A stretch of DNA of 35,533 nt, taken from positions 1 to 35,533 of the forward strand of contig SKQI01000248.1 of assembly GCA_007119095.1 (NCBI GenBank). The letters are read 5' to 3'. The DNA comes from Wenzhouxiangella sp. (GTDB lineage: Bacteria > Pseudomonadota > Gammaproteobacteria > Xanthomonadales > Wenzhouxiangellaceae). This document shows, piece by piece, positions 6,236 to 8,987 of the stretch (positions are counted from its first letter, which is position 1; every line of letters starts with the position of its first letter). A program made the position numbers and the translations under genes. A model generated the notes under the pieces. It did no database searches. It was given only the letters and a program-made list of their open reading frames with translations, and had not been told where the DNA came from.

Positions 6236-7387
6236 TCATTCAGCCATTTTCCTGATCACATCGATGGCGGCTTCGAGCTGCTGCATCGGGGTGTAGAAAT
6301 GGGGTGAGAGACGCAGGCAGCGGCCACGAATGGCGGCATGAATTCCGTGCAAGGTCAGCTGCGCCAGGGCGCTCTCCGGATCTACCCCGTCTATCACAAG
6401 GCTGACGATACCCGCGCGGTGCTCCCGCGCTATCGGGCTGGTCAGCCAAATGCGCGGCACTGACTCCAAAGCCTCGGTCAGCAGGTCGGTCCTGTCGAGC
6501 AAGGCCGAGCCGACCCGGTCCATTCCCTGTTCGACCAGCAGCGACACCGATGCTTCCAGACCATGGATAGCGGCAGTATTGAGCGTTCCAGGCTCAAATC
6601 GTCGCGCCGAATTCGGTGGCGTCCAGTCCGGGCGCGAAAAATTGAACGGATCCGGGAACATACGCCAGCCCGGCTCGACCACGTCCAGCAGGGCCCTGGC
6701 CTCGGGCCGGCTCCAGAACAGGGCCAGACCCTCCGGTGCCAGCAGCCACTTGTGCGAACCGGCAACAACAAAATCCGCCTGGACCTGGTCGACATCAAGG
6801 GGCAGGGCACCGAGATGCTGAATGGCGTCGATGCAAAACAGCACGCCGTGCCGGCTGCAGGCCTCGCCCAGGCGCGCGAGATCAAGTCTGTGGCCGTTTT
6901 CGTAGTGCACAGATGAAACGGCGAGCAGGCGCGTGCTGGGCCCGATGGCGGCGATCAGCGAGCGTTCCGGGTCGTGGGTGTCCAGACTGACCGGGCGCGG
7001 TTGTACGCCAAGTCGTTCCAGGGCCATCCAGGGCAGGGTGTTGGAGGGAAAGTCTTCTGCCATGAAGACCACACTGTCACCCGCTTGCCAGTCCAGGCCG
7101 CGGGCAATACGATTCAAGCCGGTGCTGGTGTTGGATACCAGCGCAATATCGTCGGCATTTTCCTGCCCCAGCAGCGACGGTGCCAGCTCTCGAAGACGCT
7201 GCTCGACCTGCAGCCAGCGGCCGTAGCCCAGCGGACCCTGGCTGGCGTTGTCGGACACGAAGTCCTGCATGGCCTTGCTGACCGGCTCAGGCCACGGCGA
7301 AATGGCCGCATGATTCAGCCAGGTACGACGACCAATAACCGGAAAAAGCTCGGCAACCGATGCCGAGGTCGAAGGATTCATTTCCAT
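6236..7387 (-). CDS. Class V PLP-dependent aminotransferase, substrate unknown
   Basis: Fold-type I PLP enzyme of the cysteine desulfurase / isopenicillin-N-epimerase-like group, 383 aa. TWLNHAAISPWP near the N-terminus, SNTSTGLNRIA (85-95) for phosphate binding, His161 (SVHYENG), Asp187 in CIDAIQHLG and the Schiff-base lysine Lys213 in GSHKWLLAPEG are all present, so the enzyme looks active. It lacks the loop cysteine segment needed to call a cysteine desulfurase, and no sulfur or amino acid pathway genes adjoin it. Kynureninase-like or epimerase-like roles are possible. It is transcribed alone, away from the repeat element and convergent with pilZ. Start at Met1 or Met3 (7381) is uncertain. 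Confidence 0.8.
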   Translation of the reverse strand: MEMNPSTSASVAELFPVIGRRTWLNHAAISPWPEPVSKAMQDFVSDNASQGPLGYGRWLQVEQRLRELAPSLLGQENADDIALVSNTSTGLNRIARGLDWQAGDSVVFMAEDFPSNTLPWMALERLGVQPRPVSLDTHDPERSLIAAIGPSTRLLAVSSVHYENGHRLDLARLGEACSRHGVLFCIDAIQHLGALPLDVDQVQADFVVAGSHKWLLAPEGLALFWSRPEARALLDVVEPGWRMFPDPFNFSRPDWTPPNSARRFEPGTLNTAAIHGLEASVSLLVEQGMDRVGSALLDRTDLLTEALESVPRIWLTSPIAREHRAGIVSLVIDGVDPESALAQLTLHGIHAAIRGRCLRLSPHFYTPMQQLEAAIDVIRKMAE

Positions 7388-7471: not shown

Positions 7472-7774
7472 TCCAAAGCCTTTCCTGATTACGTATGTGT
7501 CTCAGCCATGCCTTCCGCGCGTTGATCGGTCAGCGGGCCTTGTTTGTCAGGCCTTGAGGTGCAGCCGAAGCGCGCAGGGCCAGGCGGATAAAGGGCCGCC
7601 GCCTGTTTGAGCGGAGCGCCCGATAGGGCGTGCAGCGAGTTCGGCGGACCCCGCCTGGACCGAGCACTGCAGGGAATCGGCCGCCCGCAAGGGCGGTCGA
7701 CAAACCGTTGGCCTGACAGACAAGGCCCGCTGACCGATGGCTGAGGTACGTACGTAATCAGGAAACCTTTTGGA
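7472..7774. repeat. Long inverted-repeat element with folded core (REP/MITE-like, possible structured RNA)
   Basis: The two arms match as reverse complements in three blocks: 7472-7495 with 7751-7774 (21 of 24), CTCAGCCAT 7501-7509 with 7737-7745 (9 of 9) and 7525-7553 with 7710-7738 (28 of 29). The left arm carries about 17 extra bases. The roughly 155-base core contains separate hairpins: CAGGCGG/CCGCCTG (7581-7605), CGCCC-GATA-GGGCG (7617-7630), GGCGG-ACC-CCGCC (7643-7655) and a 10-bp stem with a GCAA tetraloop (7677-7700). The layout suggests a mobile palindromic repeat family or a multi-branched RNA. The core's TGTTTGAGCG...GCGAGTTC...GCAGGGAA words resemble, from memory, intergenic repeats common in beta- and gammaproteobacteria. 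Copy number cannot be judged from one window. Confidence 0.8.
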
Positions 7775-7832
7775 CGCAAAGCAGCGAAGCAGCTAAGGTT
7801 TTGAAAAGCTCGCATTCCCTGGCTGCTTTGCG
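7775..7832. repeat. 11-bp perfect inverted repeat adjoining the element
   Basis: CGCAAAGCAGC (7775-7785) is exactly complementary to GCTGCTTTGCG (7822-7832) with a 36-nt spacer. An alternative fold pairs AACCTT (7764-7769) with AAGGTT (7795-7800), which would reach back into the right arm of the large palindrome. The two folds compete for the same bases. Confidence 0.6.
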
Positions 7833-7883: not shown

Positions 7884-8987
7884 ATGCGCGCCATCATTCA
7901 CGTTGATATGGATGCCTTCTTTGCCAGCGTGGAGCAGCACGATGATCCGGCCCTGCGTGGCCGTCCAGTGATGGTGGGCGGCGGTAGTCATCGGGGCGTG
8001 GTCGCCGCGGCCAGCTACGAGGCGCGCCAGTTCGGCGTGCGCTCTGCGATGCCGGGCGCGGTGGCGCGCCGCTTGTGCCCACAGGGTGTTTTCGTCAAAT
8101 CACGATTTGCTCGTTATCGCGAAGTGTCTGCCGAAATCTTCACAATCTTCCGTCGCTATACCGACCTGGTGGAAGGGTTGAGTCTGGATGAGGCCTTTCT
8201 CGATGTCAGCGAAGCCGTGCGTCCGGAACGGGGGCTGGAGCAGATCGGCCGGGCCATCAAGCGCGATATCGGCCGTGTCTGTGGGCTCACGGCTTCGGTT
8301 GGCATGGCCCACAACAAGCTGCTGGCCAAGCTCGCTTCCGATTACGACAAGCCTGATGGTTTCACCCTGGTGCGTTTTGAGGATACCCGGCGATTTCTCG
8401 ATCCGCTGCCGATTCGGCGTCTGCCCGGCATTGGTCCGCGCAGCGCCGACAAGCTGCACGATGCCGGCATCTACACCTTGGGCCAGCTCAGAAGGACGCC
8501 GAGTGAGCTGCTGTTCGAGCTATTCGGCGCAACCGGCCTGGAGTTCGCCCGGCGCGCCGCCGGTAAGGATGAGCGTCCGGTCAAGTCAACCCGGGTGCGG
8601 CGTTCGATCAGCCAGGAAAACACATTCAGCCAGGACCATACATCGCTGGCATCGCTGCGGCCTGTTCTGCAGGCACAGTCCGAGCAAGTCGCCGAAACGC
8701 TGGTCAGGAAACAACTGTACGCTCGCACGGTCACCCTCAAACTTCGGTCCAGCCGCTTTTCCACCCTGACCCGAAGTTTGTCTCTGAATGGCTACACCCA
8801 GAGCGCGGATCGGATCAGCGCCACGGCCTTTGAACTGTTGGAAAACTGGGCGGAATGGCGATCTGGTTTTGCCGTTCGCCTGCTCGGTGTCGGCGTCAGC
8901 GGCCTCGAGGCCCAACCAGCCCTCGAAACCATCCTCGATGAAAACCAGGGCTGCAACCAGCCAAGTGCCGATGGCGGAGGCCACTGA
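7884..8987 (+). CDS. dinB: DNA polymerase IV (Y family)
   Basis: Error-prone translesion polymerase, 367 aa. Residues 5-17 HVDMDAFFASVEQ contain the first metal ligand Asp8; GLSLDEAFLDVS supplies Asp102 and Glu103; SYEARQFGVRSAMP is the fingers motif; LASDYDKPDG and the helix-hairpin-helix LPGIGPRSADKL follow, then a little-finger domain. Full length with no C-terminal beta-clamp peptide that I can name with confidence. It is a single gene, convergent with fadD, and its last codons form one arm of a strong hairpin. Confidence 0.95.
   Translation: MRAIIHVDMDAFFASVEQHDDPALRGRPVMVGGGSHRGVVAAASYEARQFGVRSAMPGAVARRLCPQGVFVKSRFARYREVSAEIFTIFRRYTDLVEGLSLDEAFLDVSEAVRPERGLEQIGRAIKRDIGRVCGLTASVGMAHNKLLAKLASDYDKPDGFTLVRFEDTRRFLDPLPIRRLPGIGPRSADKLHDAGIYTLGQLRRTPSELLFELFGATGLEFARRAAGKDERPVKSTRVRRSISQENTFSQDHTSLASLRPVLQAQSEQVAETLVRKQLYARTVTLKLRSSRFSTLTRSLSLNGYTQSADRISATAFELLENWAEWRSGFAVRLLGVGVSGLEAQPALETILDENQGCNQPSADGGGH

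Follow-up and report, generated by a model that had tools for sequence, protein, structure and literature searches.

A nested palindrome between an aminotransferase gene and dinB

The window analyzed here is a 35,533-nucleotide stretch of DNA from Wenzhouxiangella sp. (assembly GCA_007119095.1, contig SKQI01000248.1, positions 1 to 35,533; the host genome is referred to as G000). Between a class-V aminotransferase gene (6236-7387, minus strand) and dinB (7884-8987, plus strand), a gap of 496 bp holds a large palindrome, which is formed by two nested inverted repeats: an outer one of 41 nt (7469-7509/7737-7777, 83% complementary) and an inner one of 29 nt (7525-7553/7710-7738, 97% complementary). 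The plus strand has a folding energy of -193.4 kcal/mol, compared with an average of -123.0 for shuffled sequences (z = -13.6), and the minus strand also departs from its shuffles (z = -10.8). These values confirm the structured palindrome of about 300 bp that had been described in an earlier note, made from the sequence alone. Direct reading also recovered two hairpins named there, one capped by GATA and one capped by GCAA, the latter with a stem of 9 bp including one G-U pair. The pairing of the arms was found as claimed, but its outermost paired bases belong to an 8-bp target duplication and to the pre-existing target, and thus lie outside the element itself (Table 1).

Table 1. Features of the element and its flanks, in window coordinates
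Feature	Position	Strand	Evidence
Whole non-autonomous IS1595-type element (MITE), 279 bp	7484..7762	+ (orientation of core)	TIR/TSD scan; empty orthologous site in G028
Left target-site duplication AAGCCTTT	7476..7483	.	7/8 match to right copy; single copy at G028 empty site
Right target-site duplication AAACCTTT	7763..7770	.	TIR/TSD scan; G028 empty site
Left terminal inverted repeat CCTGATTACGTATGTGTCTCAGCCAT	7484..7509	+	Matches both ends of the complete G018 IS (L277)
Right terminal inverted repeat (ATGGCTGAGGTACGTACGTAATCAGG)	7737..7762	-	Inverted repeat; TIR scan
17-nt asymmetric MITE spacer	7510..7526	+	Right-hand in ten other copies; the window copy alone has it left
Left inner arm (long stem P0)	7527..7553	+	Inner inverted repeat; variable yet complementary in other copies
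Right inner arm (long stem P0)	7710..7736	+	Inner inverted repeat; comparison of copies
Conserved structured core (BRE-like module)	7564..7673	+	Covariance model match, 89.7 bits; alignment of 70 relatives; covariation
Core stem A	7580..7658 (7580-7587 with 7651-7658)	+	Two-sided changes in 7-8 of 10 model pairs
Core stem B	7593..7650 (7593-7594/7649-7650, 7596-7601/7642-7647)	+	Covariation
Apical hairpin of core	7611..7636	+	Alignment; covariation
Parts of apical hairpin: GC..GC closing; GNA/GNA internal loop; GATA-capped stem	7611-7612/7635-7636 (closing); 7616-7621/7626-7631 (stem)		
Hairpin with GCAA cap	7678..7699	+	Sequence; stem covaries in related copies, loop not always GNRA

An IS1595-type MITE as the outer part

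The element spans 279 bp, has 26-bp terminal inverted repeats (TIRs) and contains no transposase gene. Its TIRs are shared with a complete insertion sequence (IS) of the IS1595 family in a related Wenzhouxiangella genome, G018 (L047/L277), which was reached via palindromes that have the same ends without the core. The G018 IS (L277) is 1029 bp long, has the ends CCTGATTACGTA...TACGTAATCAGG and is flanked by a target-site duplication (TSD) matching at 8/8 positions. Its transposase contains a Zn-ribbon domain (PF12760) and an ISXO2-like DDE_Tnp_IS1595 domain (PF12762), and corresponds to the NF033547 IS1595 transposase. A second intact copy of the IS is present in G017.

A target-site duplication, which the earlier note had suggested looking for, flanks the window element as AAGCCTTT/AAACCTTT. 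It comprises 8 bp with 7/8 matches, the single mismatch being as expected after some decay, and related MITE copies have matches of 8/8, 8/8, 7/8, 7/8, 7/8, and 6/8. Re-paired flanks match less: none of 10,000 re-pairings attained the observed mean TSD match, in a set that still held some mis-paired ends, by which the signal is diluted. Members of the IS1595 family usually generate 8-bp TSDs (PMC8101967), and the 8-bp TSD of ISApl4 is in line with this family (PMC12561309). In the nearest relative (G028, 84% identical), the same two genes are neighbors with synteny preserved, the element is missing and the target occurs once (GCATAAAAACCTTTTGGACGC, compared with GCATCCAAAGCCTTT-[element]-AAACCTTTTGGACGC in the window). 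A chance or decayed palindrome with no biological origin has a negligible probability, since it is contradicted by the folding scores, the many related copies, the TSD and the empty site.

Based on the shared 26-bp TIRs, the 8-bp TSD and the empty site in the closest relative, we assign the outer part of the palindrome to an IS1595-type miniature element (MITE), which bears out the MITE-like reading of the earlier note. As in IS1595 insertion sequences and their MITEs, the TIR is shared with a complete element, the 8-bp TSD is A/T-rich and no internal transposase is present. Unlike an IS1595 IS, the window MITE has large palindromic arms nested inside it, around an ancient and conserved core foreign to the IS. 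We did not find an IS1595 transposase in the same genome (G000, a fragmented assembly that is 84% complete), from which we infer mobilization in trans. The insertion of the MITE upstream of both genes' neighboring ends duplicated 8 bp of target, and its most likely mover is a transposase of the IS1595 family that recognized the 26-bp ends in trans. Two relatives carry an intact gene of this kind with the same ends.

The MITE borders another interspersed repeat of shorter length (AAACCTTTTGGACGCAAAGCAGCGAAGCAGC-TAAGGTTTTG, window 7763-7803), which G028 also has at its empty site and which recurs at more than 10 other places in G000 and relatives.

The proposal that the palindrome is multicopy also held. 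The host genome contains two further copies of the core (C11 and C101); the same-genome copies show 97% and 88% identity, and copies are also present in many congeners, with matches in 23 of 60 related genomes. Multicopy, intergenic, hairpin-forming sequences that elsewhere often occur as inverted pairs are also typical of REP/BIME elements (PMC2817692), which are moved by the Y1 transposase RAYT (TnpA_REP). The window element differs from these intergenic palindromic repeats and their opposite-orientation pairs by its far larger size (279 bp compared with a short REP unit), its DDE-type 8-bp TSD and its IS1595 ends. Furthermore, a search with PF01797 (Y1_Tnp) gave no match in the host genome or in two relatives, G006 and G019, all of which bear copies. 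A RAYT-driven origin is therefore very improbable, and the earlier description of the palindrome as REP-like is not supported in this sense.

The core is conserved and covaries

The core, about 110 nt in length, is conserved over Gamma-, Beta- and Deltaproteobacteria, and its alignment over 70 relatives contains 28 invariant columns. Paired arms around a variable core, as initially described, are thus the reverse of what the relatives display: the core is the conserved part, and the arms vary. In an alignment that was not fitted to the structure (A1), the proportion of cells that pair is 89.3% and covariation scores 0.347, compared with 0.110 for shuffled and at most 0.077 for slid controls, so that the proposed check for covariation among aligned copies returned a very strong signal. 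An alignment of 123 distinct sequences that was fitted to the model gave a score of 0.560; its shuffled control reached 0.132, and its slid controls did not exceed 0.092. Within the core, 496 cells are changed on both sides and 27 on one side only, and the 2443 pair cells include only 36 G-T and 11 A-C cells. In Wenzhouxiangella, the apical part is an extended hairpin; most betaproteobacterial copies have just a minimal GCGNAGC there.

For the window and 27 related loci, no Rfam family scored above its gathering threshold, and sub-threshold hits such as CRISPR-DR9 were judged to be chance; a plasmid and phage search with the core returned no match. Core copies often translate as MSERSEF or MFERSEF, but a coding-peptide reading was rejected, because the core varies in length by non-multiples of three and the downstream frame differs between copies. 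We found no paper on this peptide motif.

Some cores carry insertions of their own. A structured repeat of about 70 nt (GGCGAGARCG...GCCGTCGCGCGTG) is inserted in the left part of the core in L034 and L037 and in the apical part in L069, so that these cores are repeats nested in repeats. An insert of similar style, GCGCCGGCAGTGCAAGCCTGGCGGTTTTCGGC...GAGCGCGTGCAGGG, is found in the 3' part of the core in L036, L054 and L056.

Inversion and probable capture of the inner unit

The inner unit of the MITE spans about 214 bp and consists of two arms of about 27 bp around the conserved folded core and a hairpin. It is also found without IS1595 ends in related Wenzhouxiangella-type genomes (e.g. L032, L035, L052, and L055), where the arms have a different sequence and are still complementary. 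The MITE therefore seems to have taken up an older repeat that belongs to a widespread family, although the opposite direction, loss of the inner unit from other contexts, may also apply.

In ten other copies, an asymmetric spacer of 13-19 nt lies to the right of the inner unit; the window copy alone has it on the left. From this swap of sides, it follows that the inner unit is inverted in the window copy. The 17 extra bases in the left arm, previously interpreted as an indel under pairing constraint, are thus the normal MITE spacer next to an inverted unit. A comparable arrangement was seen at the 3' end of etfA (L035, L055, and L106), where three genomes hold the inner unit at an orthologous position and the core is found both ways round.

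Template switching by DNA polymerases is known to homogenize the arms of inverted repeats and to invert their spacers (PMC8604942), as well as to maintain hairpins (PMC8794818). Switching between the inverted arms would probably keep the arms of the present unit complementary and occasionally flip its inside, as suggested by the near absence of G-U pairs and the few one-sided changes. A RecA-type or enzyme-made inversion would be expected to yield the same arrangement. The copies, ends, TSD, empty site, matching IS, conserved core and inversion are all observed directly. Considering all parts jointly, the palindrome is very probably an IS1595-family MITE that carries a structured module; it was most likely moved in trans, the module appears to be captured, and its arms are probably matched by template switching.

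Likely relation to the betaproteobacterial repeat element

The core resembles BRE (Betaproteobacterial repeat element), described by Hot et al. BRE is a mobile-like intergenic repeat of about 90 bp with a GC content of about 69%, which is arranged in tandem in Bordetella, overlaps the 80-nt sRNA bprJ and is present in 29 copies in Polaromonas JS666 (PMC3110155). Our core model has 91 positions and matches 52 times in a draft genome of JS666, compared with the 29 BRE copies described. Since size, host range and GC content agree, the core is likely BRE, in a comparison that was made by description and not by sequence. The loci studied here differ from BRE as described in that most cores form divergent pairs and not tandem arrays, and in that the window copy sits in a gammaproteobacterium and inside a MITE. 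One tandem pair of cores was found in G123; with an N between the units and without the expected Bordetella neighbors, it was not accepted as proof of identity.

In sum, the palindrome is an IS1595-type MITE that holds, in inverted form, an apparently captured copy of a structured repeat found in many bacteria. It would be a clean case of a transposon taking up a second repeat, and the empty site proves that the transposon inserted.

Transcript selection or matching of arms at the DNA level

The alternative that the whole palindrome is a functional structured RNA (an sRNA or a cis-element), in which selection on the transcript would produce both the palindrome and the covariation, appears unlikely. 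It would account for the very strong covariation and for the fixed unpaired motifs, and the excess of G-T over A-C mismatches on the core strand indicates that the plus strand may be the folded one. The sRNA that overlaps the Bordetella repeat (PMC3110155) would add to this if both belong to the same family. However, G-U-type pairs make up less than 2% and one-sided changes are rare, while RNAs that evolve via G-U intermediates should display more cells of both kinds; this scarcity would fit matching of the arms at the DNA level better than an RNA. Presence and absence at orthologous sites together with the TSD characterize mobile DNA, the inside occurs both ways round at the same place, and Rfam contains no match. 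The GNRA loop, previously regarded as typical of folded RNA, is not kept among copies: the stem covaries, but the loop reads GCAA, GAAA, GAAT, TGAT, CAAC, and others. The G-T excess may still leave room for a role of the plus strand, either as RNA or as single-stranded DNA. These observations also call for caution, since palindromic repeats may owe even extreme covariation to template switching and not to RNA function.

Divergent core pairs and the genes between them

Among the matches listed for the core pattern are Variovorax, Polaromonas, Curvibacter, Hylemonella, Desulfosarcina, other Deltaproteobacteria and further taxa. Scattered "hypothetical ORF" repeats in many genomes of Proteobacteria are thereby united in a single structured family. 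In these 8-kb loci from outside the genus, 56 of 59 neighboring cores are divergent, and most pairs are 100-180 bp apart with a central palindrome in between. The genome of Curvibacter PAE-UM, a single scaffold, contains 35 cores at 17 places, all of which are divergent sets, three of them with cargo. Divergent pairs are also present in some Wenzhouxiangella-type genomes (G024, G026, and G034). For a Polaromonas pair of about 540 bp, the surrounding intergenic regions were too diverged for exact boundaries or a TSD. In the draft of Polaromonas JS666 (G060), many cores are located right at contig termini, and the family thus fragments draft assemblies.

Pairs more than 400 bp apart enclose DNA of unusual composition: in all seven examined, the GC content of the enclosed DNA is 46-53%, compared with flank windows that never fall below 59%. 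Most of the enclosed genes have no family match. One low-GC gene (L194:6847-7428 / L301) encodes a GIY-YIG protein (PF22945) that matches the PADLOC model of the PD-T4-3 phage-defense system. Across the genus, the orthologs of this site comprise three genomes without the element (59-bp gap), three with a cargo-free pair (gap of about 485-560 bp) and three with cargo-holding pairs, whose cargos are dissimilar in sequence.

These sites raise the possibility, which we consider plausible but somewhat less probable than its opposite, that the core serves for end recognition in a class of mobile elements that has not been described so far, transposase-less and gene-carrying. Two divergent modules would then form a fixed-site platform, and the module in the window would be one that a MITE has captured. 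With similar reservation, we propose that unrelated low-GC genes, including that of the PD-T4-3-matching GIY-YIG protein, may be gained, lost and swapped between divergent modules across Proteobacteria. The prevalence of divergent neighbors, the Curvibacter sets, the composition of the cargo and the three states of the orthologous site all point in this direction. On the other hand, the pairs have no associated transposase or recombinase and lack a clean TSD, and homologous recombination between conserved halves could swap the cargo; moreover, the window copy is a single module with neither a partner nor cargo. A role as an end module and the MITE explanation of the window palindrome are compatible and not mutually exclusive. 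We found no paper on a cargo-carrying palindromic element in these genera. Cargo exchange by paired modules would be the surprising part for specialists, even though the window copy itself shows none, and such exchange sites with possible defense genes are directly testable.

Integron cassettes, p-dif modules and mobile insertion cassettes likewise exchange small unrelated genes between structured or inverted sites. The present repeat differs from these in being a folded core of about 91 nt in divergent arrangement, and in that the window copy has no cargo. A likeness is found in Desulfosarcina alkanivorans (L220:1732-4529), where three nearly identical cores lie in direct orientation at a spacing of about 1.3 kb, with the toxin-antitoxin genes HicB and HigA/HigB between and beside them, an arrangement that resembles a cassette array.
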